From: a virus
IMG/VR virus record: IMGVR_UViG_3300035703_002857
Location: 1 to 35,858 of that record
Length of the DNA: 35,858 nucleotides
Strand: one strand, 5' to 3'
The first letter of the stretch is position 1; each line of letters starts with the position of its first letter. Shown piece by piece: positions 9,895 through 35,298 of the stretch. Below the pieces are notes generated by a model that was given only the letters and a program-made list of their open reading frames with translations, was not told the origin of the DNA and searched no databases. The translations under genes and the position numbers were made by a program.

Positions 9895-12800
9895 TTATTC
9901 GTCCTGATCCACATCACATTTAAAATTATCCGGATCTCCTATTTTTAATCCACCATATTGCGGATCATCCTTAAGTTTCTTTGCTTCATCACTGTTCGCT
10001 GCCTGATTCTGAAAAAATGGCAATTTCCATAATAATGGTTCAAGCGCCCAATATAACATACCTGGTAGTGGAGTTACTGGTGGACCTATGCCAAGACCTG
10101 GAGGTAACAAATTAACTGGTAATAGAGCCATAGAAGCAAGAGCAGTTGGTAATATAACTTTTTGCCCTGGATAAACTGGAGTATTATTTTCTATTCTTGG
10201 GAATAACAATCCAGCCGACGCGGCATTAACTATTTGTGAAGCTATAGCGATATTTGGATCCATTAATTGAGTTATACCCTTTAATATCAATATAGGAGTG
10301 GTTATAAAAAATTGTAATATATCAAAATTAAAACCACCAGAAGGATTACCAACATTATCTAAATCTTGTTTATATTTCGCTGTTGTTCCGCCATTTCTCT
10401 CTATCGAATTTTTATGTTTATAATTTTTAATATTAACTGCGGAATCGTATAAATCTAAAATTTTATTTTTACTAGAAGTAAATAAATTTTCCATAGCAGA
10501 AGTAGACAAAGCGCTATTACTATAAAATAATGCTAGATTTGGTATTTTATTTGTCATAAAACATTTATTTAATAACAAATTATATAATGAATCTAGTGTT
10601 ATGTTCTTTAATATATTATCTTTTTCCTTGTCATAAACTTGTTGTTCGAAATTATTTATTTTCTGCTGTGTTAAGTTGTATATTTTATCATAATTAATTA
10701 AAACTTCTTTTTCTACCACTGGGAAAGAATTATAATAAACTACTTTTTCGCTGTTATAATCTATATCAAAAAAACTATACATTTTTTTATACTTAATTTT
10801 ATCCAAATCAAAACTAATATTTGTATTTGAAATGTTTAACACATTTTTTAATTGTGTATCTATGCTGGAACGAGATATAGCTATTGGCAAAGAAGCAAAA
10901 GACATTTTTCTTCTTTCCGAGACTTGTACTAATCTTATTCCCAATCTTGGTTTTTTTAAAAAATAATCTAGTTTTTTAACTGTATTATCAATGATTGGCC
11001 TGACGGATTCTCTAATTGTTAAGTTCGGTAAGTCATTTTCAATAAAAGAATTTAAAAATTGTTGATAATCTTCAAATCTTATACAACCGTTTATATTTGG
11101 ATATTTTAATTTTATGCTGCTTAGTTGACTACTAACAGACCAATTAGTCGTATTATATAAATCTTGTACGTCAACATATCTTTCTAATATGAAAAAATCA
11201 GTTGAATTTTCTGTCTTTTCCTTGTTGATCCTCGTAACTCTTCTCCTTGTCTCTTCTTTTGTACTGGTTAGCGTCGTTCTATCAAAATATAATTCTGGCA
11301 AATCATAAATCTTGTTGTTTGTTATGGAAGATAATATAGAAGTTTTATCTATATCACCAGAAACACCTATCAATTTTTTTGTATATCCAATAGTTTTTCT
11401 TGTCAGAGATTTAATTAATATTTTTAATTGTTTGTTTTCATTTTGTAATTTCTCTTGGTTCAAGTAAGAAGAAATTACAGTAGAAATATTTTCTTCATCT
11501 TCTTGTGTTATAAGATTATTTTGTTTTAAAAAATCATAATTTTCTTCTACTATTTCTTCAAATTGTTCTAATATATTATATTTTTTTAAATTTTCTAATA
11601 CTTTTATATACATAAAGTCTATCAATAAACCTGAATCCAATAGTTCATAAGCATATTTGTGAGTATCTAAAACAAACAAAGATTTTAAAATATTTTCAAA
11701 AATTACTATTCTTGTTGTCATAAGAACAACACCAATAGCAGTTGCCTCTGTTATTGGATTTTTTGGCGCCCCAAGAGAAATATCAGCACAGTATTCTTTT
11801 TTTGGTATAACTTGTAAGCCAACTTGATTAAATTTTTTAGTCATCAAATCTATTGTAGAATCTAAATTTAATGGATGTGGTTGTTTTCCACAAGCTTTTA
11901 ATTCTTCACTAGCTTCTGGTATGAAGTTTAATAAATTTAAAATTATTAAATTTGTTTTTTCTAAATCTGCGTCTTCCAATCCTTCAATTTTTGTTAATTT
12001 AAAAGGACTTAATAATCTGTTTTTAATATAAACAGACATAAAACTACTAATAATATTTTCAATTAATGGAGTGTGTTTTTCCTTTAATTTGTCTCTTACT
12101 TGCGTCGCTTCAGTATCACTTAGTGTTCTTTCAAAAGCATTAGAAAATTTTCGAAACATTAAATAGGAATACAATTCATCATTATCAAATTCTTCACATT
12201 CAGCTAAATTTACACTATTTAAGTAATCTTTTTCTTCTTGTGTCAAAGCACTATCTAAGTTACCAATAAATGAATAAGAAGAAGTATTAACTGTAATCTT
12301 ATTGTTATAAAGATATTCAAAATTATTTTTAATATCTAAATAATATTTTTTACTTTTTTCTCTATATGATATTTTCCAGTCAGGTATATCTGTTGTTTCC
12401 GTGGTTTTTAAAGAATTTAATTTTTGTGTTTTGTATATGTTCCCTTCCATTTTAATTTCTTTCGAACCAAGTTGAGAAACATATCTAACATTATTTTCTA
12501 TGTCTTCGAATGACTTGATAAATATACCAGCAGGAATATTGACTGTATTTGTTATTTTTTCTGTTCTTTTGCCGGGTTCTTCGCCACCGGTATAATTTTT
12601 TATATAATCACTATCAGAAGTGCCTATTTCCGGGTTTTGTGTTGCTATTAAAAAATTTATTAACGGATTATCATCCGCTTCCGGATCTCCACCAGATATA
12701 TCTTTAACCTTTTTTTCATATTCTTGTACGTCTGCTGGCTTATATCCAGTCGACAACAATAGTTTAAACTCCGGGTTTATAACTAATTCTTCTCCACCAG

Positions 12801-16801: not shown

Positions 16802-18670
16802 TTATACTTTTATTCTAGAAAAATACAGTCTACTTCGAACAACAGAGCCCTTCCCGGAATCCGAGAAATATTCTTTTCTATTACCAACTCCACTGCCAAC
16901 ACCTTTTCCTTGAGAACTTCGATAATCAAAACCTATTATTTTTCCACCTTCTTCGATCCAACCTAAAAAAACAACACTATGGCCGCTATTATTTGTTCTC
17001 CATATCTGCGCAAAATCTCCAGGCAAAGCTTCTGAGTGAGAAACTTGACCGCCAATTCCCATCATCTCCAAAGCCGGTCCTTGTTGGCGCTCTACTACTG
17101 ATGGATCCGGATTTGTAAATCCATACCAAATTCTCTGAAATCTTTTTACCTCTTCAATTGTTTTATTCGCAAATAAATTTCTCTTATTAATAACTTTCAT
17201 CGCTATTGTGAAAGTAGCTCCACTACAATATGTACTATTCGTATAGGGAAGGACGATTTGTCCTTTATGAAATATTGTTTCAATTACTCCACTTCCCCTC
17301 ATTTCATATTGACCGCCAGCTCCATCAACATAAGAAAAAGCAGCATCAACAACATCTTTATTTGGAGAACCAGGCTCTAAAGTAACATTTAATTTATAAT
17401 TTGCTGGGCTTGGAGATTGCTCTTGTATTAATTGTCCTCCGGGAACCCCAGAATATGGCAACGGTCTTCTGCCATAACCAAGTATTGAATACTTTTTAAC
17501 TTTACTTCCATCTTTATTTATAAAAAGTTGATTTCTCCAATCCCATTTTACAGAATAACAACTACCGCCCCAATTAAATTCAACTGTTTCCATCATATCG
17601 CCATCAACACCAATTACTAACCCTACGTGTCTATTCGAATTAACTAAATTAGGATCATTACTGGTGTTGTATACAACAATATCTCCAACTTGTGGTTCTT
17701 GGAACCAAGCACTAAGTGCTTCAGCCCATTTTTGTACGCCGTAATATTGACTAATAGAAGAAGCTGGATTATAACCATTTTCACCCGGGTACGGTATTTT
17801 ATCGGCTGGTAATGGTGCTCCTATTTGTCTAAAACACCAAGCTATGCCGTGCATACACCAAGCTTCTTTTCTCCCGCCATTAAAAGGATCGATATCTGGT
17901 CCCCCATTTGAGCCATCTGGCGATTCCTTTTTGCCTATTTGGGCGCGAGCCATAGCAACAAGCTGCTCTTTTGTTGCTGTAGTAGCAGTAAATCCATTTT
18001 TTGGAAGTTCACCAGTCCAAGAACCGGTTATAGATGGATATGAAACTTGACCCGACGGATTTCTATAACTGGCGCCACCAAAAGGATCTCCTTGTCCCGC
18101 AAAACCCGATAAAGCACCACCAGCAGCACCAGCTGCTGCTGTTGAGACTTGGCTTCCATCTGTTGGAATTCCCTTTTTATCATCGATTGGACCGAGATAA
18201 ATTGGATCTTTAAAATTTTCTCTATCTAAAAAATTACACCAGACTGTAGTACCGGGAGGTACACTTTTTATATTGGAGCTTTCTGCTAAAAACTCAGGTA
18301 TCATAGCAGCAACAGCGGCTGGCACATTTGATAAATCACTTCCCAATAAACTTTGTGGTATATGCGAATGTAAAAGAGGTATATAAATTCTATGTTTTGG
18401 TAAGCTATCTGCTCCAAGAAAATTAAAATCAAATAATCCACCATCACTTGGCGAAGAAGGAGTTTTTGTATATGTTGTTACATCTCCGACGCCTTTAATG
18501 ACTATCCCCTTATACGGACCAACTATTTTTTTTACAACATTTGGCTTGGTAGCATTTTGATTATTTTTAATAATAAGATCTAGGCCATTTAAATTTTCTG
18601 GCTCTAGTGATTCCGGCTCTTGGTTGTGTTCTGCGGAATTTAAATCGTTAATAGATAGTTTGACGACCAC
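16802..18670 (-). CDS. Tail-associated OB-fold protein with two cysteine peptidase/amidase-like domains
   Basis: 622 residues with a GTG start at 18670 (SD GAGGAG ten bases upstream). Residues ~45-165 resemble the OB-fold of gp5/VgrG-like spike proteins (YKGIVIKGVGDV, HRIYIPLL, TVWCNFLDRENFKDPIYLG). A Gly/Ala/Ser linker follows. Residues ~234-402 form a CHAP/NlpC-like domain with candidate Cys272 in EAWC and His348 in NRHVG, plus GDIVVY. Residues ~425-622 look like a second Cys/His domain: Cys482 in TYCSGATF, GDFAQIW, His564 in SGHSVVFLGW and a Gly-rich YRSSQGKGVGSGVG. Such enzymes cut peptidoglycan peptides or amide bonds during tail penetration, the job of the lysozyme domain in T4 gp5. The catalytic assignments come from motif reading. 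Confidence 0.8.
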   Translation of the reverse strand: MVVKLSINDLNSAEHNQEPESLEPENLNGLDLIIKNNQNATKPNVVKKIVGPYKGIVIKGVGDVTTYTKTPSSPSDGGLFDFNFLGADSLPKHRIYIPLLHSHIPQSLLGSDLSNVPAAVAAMIPEFLAESSNIKSVPPGTTVWCNFLDRENFKDPIYLGPIDDKKGIPTDGSQVSTAAAGAAGGALSGFAGQGDPFGGASYRNPSGQVSYPSITGSWTGELPKNGFTATTATKEQLVAMARAQIGKKESPDGSNGGPDIDPFNGGRKEAWCMHGIAWCFRQIGAPLPADKIPYPGENGYNPASSISQYYGVQKWAEALSAWFQEPQVGDIVVYNTSNDPNLVNSNRHVGLVIGVDGDMMETVEFNWGGSCYSVKWDWRNQLFINKDGSKVKKYSILGYGRRPLPYSGVPGGQLIQEQSPSPANYKLNVTLEPGSPNKDVVDAAFSYVDGAGGQYEMRGSGVIETIFHKGQIVLPYTNSTYCSGATFTIAMKVINKRNLFANKTIEEVKRFQRIWYGFTNPDPSVVERQQGPALEMMGIGGQVSHSEALPGDFAQIWRTNNSGHSVVFLGWIEEGGKIIGFDYRSSQGKGVGSGVGNRKEYFSDSGKGSVVRSRLYFSRIKV

Positions 18671-18671
18671 T

Positions 18672-18968
18672 TCATTCTGTCTCCTCTATTTCATTATAGA
18701 GTTCTTCTTTATCTTCCTTGTTTAAATCCCCATATTTATCTTCGTCAACTTTTTTCATTAAAGAAATTAGTTTAACCAATTGTTCGTTCGATCTTTGAAG
18801 AGTTTCCAAATATTTAGCAGCAACCATACCAGTAGAAGAATATCTATCTTTTTGCTGACCTATGTATTCGGCAACATCCTGGAGTAGTTCTTGTGCCGCT
18901 TCACGATCTTGATTGATGTTTTCGATCGCTTGTTGTATTAGTTCTTCTTTTGTTTTTTTAGATTTCAT
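18672..18968 (-). CDS. Small coiled-coil phage protein, uncharacterised
   Basis: 98 residues from ATG 18968 (MKSKKTKEELIQQAI), very acidic and helical, with the core REAAQELLQDVAEYI followed by AAKYLETLQRSNEQLVKLISLM. I associate this kind of protein with marine T4-like phages but cannot name a function. An ATG at 19004 would add 12 residues read from a second frame of the duplicated sigma-gene tail. I prefer 18968 because the extension overlaps that copy and the recognisable helix begins after it, although neither start has a strong SD. The stop lies one base before the GTG of the OB-fold/lysin gene, suggesting coupling. Confidence 0.65.
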   Translation of the reverse strand: MKSKKTKEELIQQAIENINQDREAAQELLQDVAEYIGQQKDRYSSTGMVAAKYLETLQRSNEQLVKLISLMKKVDEDKYGDLNKEDKEELYNEIEETE

Positions 18969-18987
18969 ATTAATAAATATGATCTCG

Positions 18988-19068
18988 TCAGATTTCTCCG
19001 TCATCCCAGGTTTTCTTAAATTCTTTGTATTTTTGTCTTATTTTATTTAGATTGTTGACAACTTGTTT
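18988..19068 (-). pseudogene. Second copy of the sigma-factor 3' end (26 codons plus stop)
   Basis: Read in the sigma frame this stretch encodes the same residues as the end of the late sigma factor (KQVVNNL to WDDGEI) and then a TGA stop. It matches 19712-19792 with a 724-base offset. The differences are third-position, synonymous changes in six codons (K, N, L, N, R, I) and the stop codon (TGA here, TAG in the intact gene). Upstream the frame runs into the endonuclease gene, which reads through the start of this copy in another frame and stops at 19043. It is most simply the original end of the sigma gene, left behind when the endonuclease cassette came in. Confidence 0.85.
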
Positions 19069-19663
19069 TCTTTTTTCTTTTTTTTGCTGCTTCACTTAAT
19101 TTTTTCCTATGTTCTTCGGAAAATTTAATTCCCTTTTTTCCTTTACTTATGTTTTCTTTATGTTCTTCTGTTTTTTTTCTGTCTTTTAAAGAATCGCTAA
19201 TTTTCTTCTTCCATTCTTCTGAAAGTTCATTTCCATAATTATAGTTATTTTCTCCACTATTGGCTTCCGCAATTTTTTCTTTCCACTTTATCTCTCTTCC
19301 TTTTAGAGAAGCAGAAATTTTTTCACAAGTTTCTGGTTTCGTAATTCTTTTTCTTCTTGCTAATGATAATTTATATCTTGTCTCATCAGATGCTTTTATT
19401 CCCAGATTAGAAGAGGCTATTGACCTTTTGTTATATTCTGGCTTTAAAAGTTCCATATAGTATTGTTCTCTTTCGATTAGTTTAGAAGTATCTTCTACGT
19501 TTTCTATTATTTCAAATATAAAGTTTTCTTTTCCATATTTTTTAAATGCGGATTCAAGATGTTCATTATATTTTTTACACCATCTTTTAAAACAATTAAT
19601 AGCGCTTCCTATATAAAACTTTCCATTTATCTTATTTGTTATTTTATAAACTCCGCTTGACAT
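19043..19663 (-). CDS. GIY-YIG homing endonuclease with NUMOD-type DNA-binding repeats
   Basis: 206 residues from ATG 19663, chosen over the in-frame TTG at 19669 because SD GAGGG lies six bases upstream of the ATG. The N-terminus holds the GIY-YIG nuclease core: GVYKITN (residues 4-10), KFYIGSA (15-21) and basic Arg27, with an E in IEREQYYME further on. The C-terminal half has three or four NUMOD3-like motifs (ISASLKGREIKW, ISDSLKDRKKTEEHKENISKGKKG, FSEEHRKKLSEAAKK), which bind DNA in phage homing enzymes. It lies between two copies of the sigma-factor 3' end, and its last codons are read out of frame from the downstream copy. It is a mobile gene that would spread by cutting sites in related phages; the target is probably the sigma gene itself. 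Confidence 0.92.
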   Translation of the reverse strand: MSSGVYKITNKINGKFYIGSAINCFKRWCKKYNEHLESAFKKYGKENFIFEIIENVEDTSKLIEREQYYMELLKPEYNKRSIASSNLGIKASDETRYKLSLARRKRITKPETCEKISASLKGREIKWKEKIAEANSGENNYNYGNELSEEWKKKISDSLKDRKKTEEHKENISKGKKGIKFSEEHRKKLSEAAKKRKKKTSCQQSK

Positions 19664-19711
19664 ATACAACCCTCACTTTTAATAAGTAGGCTATATATTC
19701 TTTTTTATCCA
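19069..19711 (-). mobile_element. Inserted endonuclease cassette between the duplicated sigma-gene ends
   Basis: This is the non-duplicated DNA between the two 81-base repeats. It contains nearly the whole GIY-YIG gene plus a ~48-base leader after the intact sigma stop. No transposase, terminal inverted repeat or intron core is apparent, so it looks like a free-standing homing endonuclease insertion, not an insertion sequence. The cassette as it moved probably also includes the upstream repeat copy. Confidence 0.65.
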
Positions 19712-19792
19712 CTAAATTTCTCCGTCATCCCAGGTTTTCTTAAATTCTTTGTATTTTTGCCTTATTTTGTTGAGATTATTGACAACTTGCTT
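19712..19792 (-). repeat. Duplicated 3' end of the sigma gene, functional copy
   Basis: These 81 bases form the last 26 codons and TAG stop of the intact sigma gene and are matched by 18988-19068. The two copies encode identical residues. Homology stops abruptly at the Lys codon: further upstream one copy continues as sigma coding sequence (DLNT) and the other as Lys/Arg-rich endonuclease sequence. Confidence 0.9.
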
Positions 19793-20446
19793 GGTATTTA
19801 GGTCTGTTATCTCTCTCACGTATAAATAAATCGCTTTTTTATTAAAAATTTCGATTGAATCCGGATCTTTCAACAAGATTGTAACAGCCTCTAAAACTTT
19901 TCTTTCATTTGCTTTTAAGTCTAAATTTTTCCAATCTTCTATCTCTTCCCATAAATGTTTCCAAAATTCATCATTTTCTCTTATATTGTCTGTTTGATTA
20001 TAAATCACTAAATTATCATAATCAAATTCTTTTTGATGCTCGGCATCGTCGAGAAATAACTCTTTTTTATTTTGACGGCTTACTTTTTTAACTTTATGAA
20101 TAAACCAGTTTTTAGTTATAACAGAAAAATAACTAAAAGCTTTTGAGCCCTTTGATGGATCGAATTTATCTAAAATAGTTGTAATCCAAATTTTACATTC
20201 TTCTTTTAGATCTTCTATGTTTGGAAGATTATTAAACTTATAAGTAAAAACTATTTTATTTACCATTTCATTAAATGCTGGACCTATAAGGCTTCTATAC
20301 AAATCTTGTCTTATTTTTGCGTCTTTAGTATTTGCGTATTTTATTATAGCGTCTTCATGGTCCTGCGTAAAATACAGTTTTTCCTGCTGCTGTGGCGAAC
20401 TTTTCTTTGTTCTCCTCATCCTCTTCTGGTTCTTTTGATTCGTCAT
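19712..20446 (-). CDS. 55: Late transcription sigma factor, T4 gp55-like
   Basis: 244 residues. FDPSKGSKAFSYFSVITKNW (residues ~96-115) followed by FIHKVKKVSRQNKK is the sigma region 2 pattern of gp55-like factors; upstream NIEDLKEECKIWITTILDKF fits region 2.1-2.2. The C-terminal helix (residues ~205-237) resembles a short helix-turn-helix region. In T4, gp55 joins host core RNA polymerase at TATAAATA promoters with the sliding clamp and gp33. The start at 20446 has SD GAGGA five bases upstream, although it overlaps the preceding gene by 92 bases; Met10 at 20419 is an alternative. The 3' end is one of two near-identical copies flanking the GIY-YIG gene. Confidence 0.88.
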   Translation of the reverse strand: MTNQKNQKRMRRTKKSSPQQQEKLYFTQDHEDAIIKYANTKDAKIRQDLYRSLIGPAFNEMVNKIVFTYKFNNLPNIEDLKEECKIWITTILDKFDPSKGSKAFSYFSVITKNWFIHKVKKVSRQNKKELFLDDAEHQKEFDYDNLVIYNQTDNIRENDEFWKHLWEEIEDWKNLDLKANERKVLEAVTILLKDPDSIEIFNKKAIYLYVREITDLNTKQVVNNLNKIRQKYKEFKKTWDDGEI

Positions 20447-29412: not shown

Positions 29413-30674
29413 GCGATCTCCTTCAAAACCCATCGATCGTAACCTTTTCTGTTTTCCCAGGAACCTTTTTCATTGGCAATTTTTGTGAAAAGTTCATCCC
29501 ACTTATTCATCAATATCGACATATTATAATTTTTTTCTAAATGGGCGCGGCCGGCCTTTCCAAGTGCCTTTCTTTCTTCTTCTGACATATTAAACATTTT
29601 TAGCAGTCCATTTATAAAATCTTCTTTTGCCACTCTGTCTTCATAGATAAATGGAACATCCTGTGAGCCTACTATCATTTGAGAAGCTATTGGTAATTCT
29701 ACGCCAAAAAAATTACCTTCTTCATCTTTTACTTGTTCTTGTAATCCACCTGTTTTTGGAACAACTATAGGTGTTTCACAAGCCAAGCTTTCCATAGTAG
29801 AAAGACCAAAACCTTCAGCATCACTTAAGCTGACAGTAACATCAGATATATTATACATCGCTGCTAAGTCTTGTGGGCCAATTCTAGCTGGAGAAAACAT
29901 CACCTCTCCATTTGTCAATCCAAGCTCGTTTATTATTGCTTCTAAATCAGGCCCGTGAACGTCTTTTGGATCTGTATGCATCAACAACTTGGCTTTATCT
30001 TTTCCTACAATATTTAAGAAATCATTAAACCACCAAACAACACTGCCTGGATTTTTTCTACGGGCGTTTCTACTATTCCAAAATACTGTAAATTTTTTAT
30101 TTGGATCTTTTGGGAACGCTCTTTTTCGAAATTCCATCATCTGTTGATCCGGATATTTTTTAAATATATCCATATCCACAGCGTGAGGTATATAGTGTGT
30201 TTCTACTTCTGGTGCGACATTTCTAACAATATCATCTGTAACTTTAGATATGGTGACAATAACATCATTAGAAAGATAATAAGGTTTATTAAATTTTGGA
30301 TATGGTTTATTGTCCCAGACGTGATAATAAACCATTGGAACATTACAGCGAACTTCATCTTCTATTTCCCATAGCCAACCATAGAAGCGGGGATCAGTCA
30401 TAAACCATAGTATATCTGGTTTTTGTTGTTTTAATAATTGACGAATTAAATCTTGTGTTCCATATCCGTCGACTGGAATGATTATAAAATCATCTCCCCA
30501 CTCTTGGGTTTTTTGAATTCTATAATCATTATGTTTGACTGCTCCTCCAAGGCATATAAAAGAATATTTGCCAGTTTTTAACATAGCATCAATCATATAT
30601 CGCGACTGATTACCGACACCACTAGGTGACAAAGGATGATCTGATATTGTTAAGATTTTAATCTTTTTATTCAT
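29409..30674 (-). CDS. Glycosyltransferase family 4-like (GT-B)
   Basis: 421 residues from ATG 30674, which shares its A with the HNH stop (TGATG) and has SD GGAG five bases upstream; the GTG at 30677 is not needed. Opening ILTISDHPLSPSGVGNQSRYM, PHAVDMDIFKKYP, then FTVFWNSRNARRKNPGSVV and SDAEGFGLSTMESLACETPIVVP (EX7E) are classic GT4 features. Donor and acceptor are unknown. It overlaps the next glycosyltransferase by four bases. The HNH gene inserted upstream may have separated it from the nuclease gene. Confidence 0.88.
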   Translation of the reverse strand: MNKKIKILTISDHPLSPSGVGNQSRYMIDAMLKTGKYSFICLGGAVKHNDYRIQKTQEWGDDFIIIPVDGYGTQDLIRQLLKQQKPDILWFMTDPRFYGWLWEIEDEVRCNVPMVYYHVWDNKPYPKFNKPYYLSNDVIVTISKVTDDIVRNVAPEVETHYIPHAVDMDIFKKYPDQQMMEFRKRAFPKDPNKKFTVFWNSRNARRKNPGSVVWWFNDFLNIVGKDKAKLLMHTDPKDVHGPDLEAIINELGLTNGEVMFSPARIGPQDLAAMYNISDVTVSLSDAEGFGLSTMESLACETPIVVPKTGGLQEQVKDEEGNFFGVELPIASQMIVGSQDVPFIYEDRVAKEDFINGLLKMFNMSEEERKALGKAGRAHLEKNYNMSILMNKWDELFTKIANEKGSWENRKGYDRWVLKEIA

Positions 30675-31318
30675 CACTGCTCCAGAAGATATTTAAATTC
30701 ATCAAGAATTTTATCTTTTTTTAACATATTTTCTAAACTATGTAAAGGTCTTAAATTTTCTAAACTCCAACATTTCAAAAAATTTTCATCTTGCATTGAA
30801 GTATATTTATAATAATTTTGCGGTATTATATGGTCTATGTGCCAATAAGTTCCATAATTATCCCAATTCATATTTTTATCAAACTGTTTTTCTAAGTGCT
30901 CTTTTAGTTCTTTTGGTGTATAAGGTAAAGACTTCCACGTTGCACTTGTTTTGGGAACATGCTGCCTTTTCAGATATAAACTTATTGTACGGGAAATTCC
31001 CTTTCTGAGTTTATAAATTAGCTCTTCAGTTTTAGTTCTTTTTTGTGGAATATGTTGTTTCCATTTACTATAAGTTCCATCTTCAATGTATTTTTTTGAA
31101 GCACAAGAACGAGAGCAAAAACCATTTCTTTTTCTGTATCTTGTAACTTCTTTTTCACAATGGAAACATTTAAAAGTTTCTAAATGATTTAAATTTGTTC
31201 TTTTTCTTCTTAAATTATTGTGTTTTTTTCTACACTCATCAGAGCAAGTTCTTTTCATACCTTGCCCTTCTAACAGGGTAAATTCAGTGTTACAAATTAA
31301 ACAATTTCTTGTAGTCAT
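30674..31318 (-). CDS. HNH homing endonuclease with zinc fingers
   Basis: 214 residues. Two N-terminal zinc-finger-like modules (Cys6/9/25/29 and Cys51/54/68/72) precede a basic linker and an HNH domain: YWHIDHIIPQ (His160, Asp162, His163), FLKCWSLENLRPLHSLEN with Asn188 and His193, and terminal KK. This matches free-standing HNH endonucleases of phages. It sits alone between a nuclease gene and glycosyltransferases, sharing a base with the next ATG. The RBS (GGGAG, about 11 bases from the ATG) lies at the edge of a strong hairpin, a typical form of control for such genes in T4. Confidence 0.9.
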   Translation of the reverse strand: MTTRNCLICNTEFTLLEGQGMKRTCSDECRKKHNNLRRKRTNLNHLETFKCFHCEKEVTRYRKRNGFCSRSCASKKYIEDGTYSKWKQHIPQKRTKTEELIYKLRKGISRTISLYLKRQHVPKTSATWKSLPYTPKELKEHLEKQFDKNMNWDNYGTYWHIDHIIPQNYYKYTSMQDENFLKCWSLENLRPLHSLENMLKKDKILDEFKYLLEQ

Positions 31319-34542: not shown

Positions 34543-35298
34543 ATGCCACAGTTTTTTAAACAATTATTAGGCATAATGATGTTAGTAGTATATTCTACTA
34601 GCTGTGGATGCGCTACTCTTTTTAATTCAGTTAACTTCAAAGATGCTCCACGTAATTCTTTCGTTAAAGTCGAAGTTCTTACAGATCAATATGCCAGTAC
34701 TGGCTCTGGAGTAATTATTAATCATATTGAAAATTCCAACACAATTATTCTTACAGCTGGTCATATTTGTCATGATAACACGATTGCTATGAGAGTTTTA
34801 GATATAAAAGAAAAAGCTTTTGAAGTTATTACATTTGTAAAAGCTGAAAGAGATGACTTATGCCTTCTAATAACAAAAGGAGTTATAAACGGAAAACCAA
34901 TAAAACTAGCCGAAGAAGCTCCTCAAATTGGAGAACATTCCTACAACATAGCAGCTCCAATGGGAATACACGCACCAGATATGGAACTAATGTTTGACGG
35001 TTATTATCAAGGCAAATTAAAATTATCAGTAGAACATTACCCATCCGATATTTATAGCATCGCAGGAATGGGTGGTAGCTCTGGTTCTCCAATATTTAAT
35101 GAGAACTGGGAACTAGTTGGGATTGTATCTAGAGGTATAAACGGATTTCAACATATAATGCTTTCAGTTGAATATCCGAGAATTAAAATATTTTACGAAT
35201 ACGCTTTTACAGAACAATTTAAAGTTGATGCCGCTAGAAATATGGGAAACATTGAAAAGAAAATGATGGATTTTATGAGCAAATTAATGAGCTTATGA
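34543..35298 (+). CDS. Predicted exported trypsin-like serine protease
   Basis: 251 residues, the only plus-strand protein gene. The N-terminus (residues 1-23) has Lys6 and a hydrophobic stretch ending STSCGCA, a signal peptide with a possible, non-canonical lipobox Cys. A trypsin/HtrA-like fold follows: LTAGHIC gives His74, ERDDLCLL gives Asp104 or Asp105, and GGSSGSP gives Ser180 as catalytic triad. An N-terminal GSGVIIN and a C-terminal WELVGIVSRG are also typical. It would cut proteins in the host envelope or outside. ATG 34576 with AGG four bases upstream is an alternative start but shortens the signal. The stop overlaps the stop of the convergent gene by six bases. Confidence 0.85.
   Translation: MPQFFKQLLGIMMLVVYSTSCGCATLFNSVNFKDAPRNSFVKVEVLTDQYASTGSGVIINHIENSNTIILTAGHICHDNTIAMRVLDIKEKAFEVITFVKAERDDLCLLITKGVINGKPIKLAEEAPQIGEHSYNIAAPMGIHAPDMELMFDGYYQGKLKLSVEHYPSDIYSIAGMGGSSGSPIFNENWELVGIVSRGINGFQHIMLSVEYPRIKIFYEYAFTEQFKVDAARNMGNIEKKMMDFMSKLMSL

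Follow-up and report, generated by a model that had tools for sequence, protein, structure and literature searches.

The window analysed here is the whole of a 35,858-nt metagenomic viral contig (IMG/VR record IMGVR_UViG_3300035703_002857), and the locus under study lies on its minus strand. Read along that strand, the locus is composed of a late sigma factor gene (20446–19712), a 48-nt spacer, a GIY-YIG endonuclease gene (19663–19043), a second version of the sigma 3′ end (19068–18988) and a gene encoding a protein of 98 residues (18968–18672). The tail that belongs to the sigma gene is referred to as copy A and the second version as copy B. The features of the locus are as follows.

19712–20446, minus strand: late sigma factor gene (gp55-like), 244 residues, complete and ending in copy A (open reading frame; PHROG 234; 16 close relatives)
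19752–19831, minus strand: A-type patch, about 80 nt common to the window and the relatives L001 and L003; probable imported or co-converted tract (haplotype comparison)
19712–19792, minus strand: copy A, the in-frame sigma 3′ end, 26 codons plus TAG (sequence comparison of the tails)
19664–19711, minus strand: 48-nt spacer that separates the endonuclease start from the sigma stop codon, not present in relatives (alignment to relatives)
19043–19663, minus strand: GIY-YIG/NUMOD3 homing endonuclease gene, 206 residues (Pfam, PHROG and conserved residues)
18988–19068, minus strand: copy B, the resident sigma tail in its displaced position, 26 codons and TGA, lacking a start codon in its own frame (sequence)
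18672–18968, minus strand: gene for the 98-residue protein, directly 3′ of the sigma gene in relatives (open reading frame; relatives)

The sigma protein shows profile similarity to the T4 gp55-like family (PHROG 234, late sigma factor, E = 4.9e-7); a Pfam search with the same protein gave no match. An earlier note on this DNA had claimed that the last 26 codons and the stop codon of the sigma gene occur on both sides of a GIY-YIG gene, and our comparison of the tails confirmed this for 19712–19792 and 18988–19068. Both copies translate to KQVVNNLNKIRQKYKEFKKTWDDGEI. They differ at 8 of 81 nt, which agrees with the claim of six synonymous third-position changes (19790, 19778, 19772, 19769, 19760 and 19715 in the coordinates of copy A) and a different stop codon, TAG versus TGA, contributing the remaining two bases. 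The differences are unevenly placed: five fall within the first 33 nt of the tail, and the following 44 nt are identical. The tail-to-tail match across the endonuclease gene (E = 6e-15) is far above chance, and a comparable repeat was absent from every other gene scanned in the window. A weak match at 11486–11559 falls within a large gene of the baseplate region.

The endonuclease contains both a GIY-YIG domain (PF01541, E = 1.8e-11) and a NUMOD3 motif (PF07460, E = 3.9e-14) and matches the homing endonucleases of PHROG 314 (E = 6e-34). All residues that are invariant across its aligned relatives are retained, and the enzyme is apparently intact. Translation more likely starts at ATG 19663 than at TTG 19669. 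At its 3′ end the open reading frame overlaps copy B by 26 nt, out of frame, and takes its stop codon from copy B. On the other side of copy B, the frame of the 98-residue protein is open back to an ATG at 19004 within copy B, which would add 12 codons (18672–19004, minus strand); in close relatives, this upstream frame is interrupted by a stop codon. The copy B remnant could serve the 98-residue protein gene as a leader or N-terminal extension.

Several other genes of the window were noted. A second probable mobile endonuclease, of the HNH or endonuclease VII-like type, is encoded at 30674–31318 (minus strand), flanked by genes for a glycosyltransferase-like protein and a PD-(D/E)XK exonuclease, and no duplicated gene end was found around it. 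At 34543–35298 (plus strand; PHROG 9683), a trypsin-like protease whose N-terminus resembles a signal sequence is encoded on the strand opposite to nearly all other genes. Adjoining the baseplate genes, 16802–18670 (minus strand) encodes a 622-residue CHAP-domain protein, probably a lysin; within the fetched DNA of the 16 closest relatives by sigma protein (L001–L016), a similar gene was identified only in L001.

The empty site in related phages

A search of IMG/VR with the sigma protein yielded the relatives L001–L016, and the wider sample comprised 125 loci, 92 of them distinct. In the eight nearest relatives, a single sigma tail is followed directly by the 98-residue protein gene, which is the uninterrupted order that the earlier note had predicted for phages lacking the endonuclease. 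The predicted TGA at the end of the sigma gene did not hold for the close relatives, which use TAG or TAA; TGA was confined to relatives at a greater distance, among them L007 and L008. The 98-residue protein gene lies within about 40 nt of the sigma gene in most of the 92 distinct loci. Relatives that keep both tails without the endonuclease, which by the earlier note would contradict the acquisition, are absent from this sample: all 125 related loci have one sigma tail and none has two.

Alignments between the window and its relatives end at about 19711–19716 (19701 for the more distant L008) and restart at 19068–19075. Homology to the nearest relatives is lost where copy A ends and regained where copy B begins, which identifies the window as an occupied site, and these boundaries indicate a gain of one tail length, the endonuclease gene and the spacer, 724 nt together. 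The site is occupied in the window and empty in close relatives, as is typical of a homing endonuclease. The window is the sole occupied site among the 125 loci sampled, and no donor phage with an endonuclease at the sigma site was found among them. Elsewhere in the contigs of the relatives, which are mostly fragments, a search without a positive control found no copy of the endonuclease.

Duplicated gene ends at other endonuclease loci

We surveyed GIY-YIG endonuclease loci collected by successive IMG/VR searches and belonging to one branch of these enzymes. A locus was counted as positive where a protein-level duplication of at most 65 residues flanked the endonuclease and the second copy abutted the endonuclease 3′ end. 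By this rule, 16 of 117 related loci, about one in eight, carry a duplicated host-gene end across the endonuclease, 14 of them convincingly; L249 and L252 look weak. The first set, on which the rule was shaped, gave 8 positives among 73 distinct loci. The second set, fetched later and scanned by the same rule, gave 8 of 44, a rate biased upwards because its query alignment was built from the endonucleases of five positive loci. Because a single branch of GIY-YIG enzymes was sampled, the rate, for which 8/73 is the less biased value, is valid for that branch only. As a control, 1 of 606 non-endonuclease open reading frames of the fetched loci passed the rule (Fisher P = 1.3e-12, or 5.5e-11 with the two weak cases excluded). 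A DNA-only first pass over the first endonuclease relatives had yielded no convincing flanking repeat; the recurrence was seen with more loci and the protein-level scan.

Most positives show the mirror form of the arrangement in the window, in which a short N-terminal gene remnant is followed by the endonuclease and then by the complete gene with its own N-terminus. Among the host genes of the survey are those for thymidylate synthase, which recurs at several loci, for a DnaX-type clamp loader, for IF-3 and for a PD-(D/E)XK nuclease; the first three belong to the mirror form. The thymidylate synthase loci, each with an N-terminal remnant, a GIY-YIG gene and the complete gene, are listed below.

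L183, 2001–4582
L169, 2072–4592
L280, 2375–4497
L315, 2286–4481

C-terminal cases like the window are L226, where the host gene encodes a helicase, L290, where the duplicated end may be that of a ribonucleotide reductase small subunit, and L208, the last recognised by DNA comparison. The arrangement is also present in the annotated genomes L240 and L229. In the latter, Arcanobacterium phage TPWB06 (1544–4442), the large terminase is annotated in three pieces with the endonuclease between them and with repeats of about 73% identity across it. Among 15 loci from annotated phage genomes, crAss-like phage MT774388 has the N-terminal form. In several surveyed cases, the two copies are 51–86% identical with many synonymous changes, which fits divergence in separate phages before the copies came together in one genome and favours import over recent local duplication as the general route.

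Origin of the two sigma tails

We consider it probable that a homing-endonuclease cassette entered the sigma coding sequence between codons 218 and 219 and that the reading frame was completed by a replacement 3′ end. The junction falls in a highly conserved stretch of the sigma protein, LNT/KQVVNNLNKIRQKY, where the slash marks the junction. Across the greater part of the sigma gene, roughly 13–41% of synonymous codons differ between any two of the window, L001 and L003. Within codons 206–231, the same three sequences show synonymous differences at 0 of 13 codons before the junction and at 1–2 of 13 after it; comparisons of any of them with L002, L005, L006, L007 or L008 over these codons give ordinary divergence. 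At the DNA level, the shared stretch (19831–19752) holds two variable sites in 80 nt, is centred at about 19792, that is, on the junction, begins 39 nt before the repeat and stops in the middle of copy A. The similarity of the window to L001 and L003 is limited to about 40 nt on each side of the junction, and just upstream it is 80–84%. A codon permutation gave P = 0.0018 for this trio, or about 0.04 when corrected for 20 trios, with no other trio as extreme; this refers to a patch known from three sequences of a generally mosaic group. L001 and L003 carry the patch with no endonuclease at the site, and the A-type stretch is not confined to endonuclease-bearing phages.

Copy B does not have the A-type haplotype and mostly shows states common in other relatives. 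Because copy A carries a haplotype unlike its own surroundings and common to L001 and L003, and copy B is of the ordinary type, the better polarity would be that copy A was imported and copy B is resident. This is the polarity that the earlier note had put forward when it claimed acquisition of a replacement 3′ end from a related phage, and the haplotypes support it; the claim needs to be narrowed in extent, as the foreign part corresponds to the patch of about 80 nt at the junction and not to the whole 3′ end. In the comparison that it had suggested, of which copy is nearer to relatives, copy A is nearest to L001 and L003 in the patch only, and copy B resembles the ordinary type.

The distal 44 nt are identical in A and B (chance about 0.02), which argues against the whole tail being simply foreign, and suggests that this part either arose locally or was homogenised between the two copies. 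A local origin is also the core of an explanation that we regard as rather unlikely, namely that the tail was duplicated on the spot as the endonuclease entered, with template switching during break repair as one possible cause, and that recombination with a related phage afterwards gave the junction patch its A-type sequence. This explanation draws on the distal identity, including a Thr codon (ACC) found there in both A and B and not in L001, L002, L003, L005 or L006, but later homogenisation of A and B accounts for this identity equally well. It also needs two events at one point, and many synonymous changes separate the copies in the surveyed parallels, far more divergence than a recent local duplication would leave.

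A reversed polarity, in which copy A is resident and the endonuclease was imported together with copy B and some downstream DNA, would be in line with the contiguity of copy A with the sigma gene and with its closeness to L001 and L003, the two relatives to which the sigma body, too, is nearest. That closeness is, however, confined to the narrow stretch around the junction, and neither copy B nor the 98-residue protein gene has a special affinity to any relative, making this polarity improbable. It is more improbable still that the repeat is an artefact of an assembler merging strains with and without the endonuclease. The metagenomic origin of the contig and the 44 nt shared by both copies could give rise to such an error, but the joins of copy A to the spacer and of the endonuclease gene to copy B contain no repeat at which the assembler could have switched, and independent contigs as well as annotated phage genomes contain similar arrangements. 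A group I intron or intein in the sigma gene, with copy B as the 3′ exon, can be dismissed almost completely: the highly conserved codons at the insertion point and the frequent occurrence of GIY-YIG genes in introns would suit it, but the sigma gene is complete upstream of the endonuclease, and a stop codon and a separate start come first. Both candidates were rejected, the group I intron with no Rfam intron match and the intein with no in-frame fusion.

Proposed insertion route and comparison with known systems

For the reading in which copy A was imported and copy B is resident, we infer cleavage at the site, homing, a repair route and resistance of the A-type target. A related phage infecting the same cell would supply the GIY-YIG enzyme, which would cleave the resident sigma gene at the junction or close to it. 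Repair of the break would then copy the synonymously recoded A-type stretch of the donor together with the linked endonuclease gene, and the resident distal end would be joined directly behind the endonuclease, leaving the copy B remnant, the start of which would mark the cut. As copy A leaves the target uninterrupted, the element would be protected from its own enzyme by the synonymous differences and not by disruption of the site; the A-type recoding could plausibly spoil the cleavage site. In L001 and L003, repair of a break may have copied about 40 nt to either side from an A-type donor, not enough to include the endonuclease, and the outcome would be a resistant allele without the endonuclease. 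Alternatively, recombination between A and B could have deleted the cassette and left an A-type gene.

More broadly, we tentatively suggest that end replacement may be a general and so far undescribed route by which free-standing phage GIY-YIG endonucleases enter essential genes, with the recoded end providing both repair and self-immunity and spreading alone as a resistance patch, as in L001 and L003. Such a route would answer a point that the T4-like model of intergenic, far-cutting enzymes leaves open, namely how an endonuclease colonises essential coding sequence without an intron. Sequence alone suffices for the duplicated end to locate the probable cut site to a few bases, and it offers a signature by which any phage genome can be screened, a remnant of a host-gene end adjoining an endonuclease. 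Short open reading frames adjoining endonucleases in phage annotations may be such remnants. The duplicated end would also tie an oddity of fungal mitochondria to a possibly common phage process.

Homing of the T4 type begins with a break in the empty allele, for which the allele bearing the endonuclease serves as repair template, and the flanks are co-converted; the free-standing endonuclease genes of T4 are intergenic, and their products cut at a distance of hundreds or thousands of bp (PMC2988022). The window shares with the T4-like Seg endonucleases an intronless GIY-YIG gene, presence or absence among related phages and, on the proposed route, co-conversion of flanks in repair. Unlike the Seg genes, the insertion is not intergenic; it lies inside coding sequence and splits the ancestral unit of the sigma gene and the 98-residue protein gene within sigma codons, and its probable cut site is the insertion point itself. 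The locus resembles nrdA of Aeromonas phage Aeh1 in having an endonuclease in an essential phage gene without an intron. However, nrdA with its mobE insertion is left in two pieces (PMC3653736), whereas the sigma gene stays whole because its end is present twice. We found no phage precedent for gene-end replacement in the open-access literature.

The closest parallel is provided by the mORF hybrids of fungal mitochondria, described for Allomyces atp6, Glomus atp6, atp9, cox2 and nad3, Rhizopus atp9 and Mortierella cox2 (PMC3630166). They have the same order as the window, a gene core with an inserted in-frame end, then an endonuclease open reading frame and the native end downstream; their differences are mostly or wholly synonymous, and phylogeny marks the inserted C-terminus as foreign (PMC3630166). 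In the window, about 80 nt around the junction are foreign-like in this sense, and the distal half is equal in both copies. The fungal hybrids are mitochondrial, mostly involve LAGLIDADG enzymes (GIY-YIG in atp9) and have an inserted end that is diverged along its length. In contrast, the window is of phage origin, has a GIY-YIG/NUMOD3 enzyme and a much shorter foreign patch, and its A-type sequence is also carried by endonuclease-free relatives. Relative to the fungal hybrids, the phage survey adds the mirror form with N-terminal remnants.
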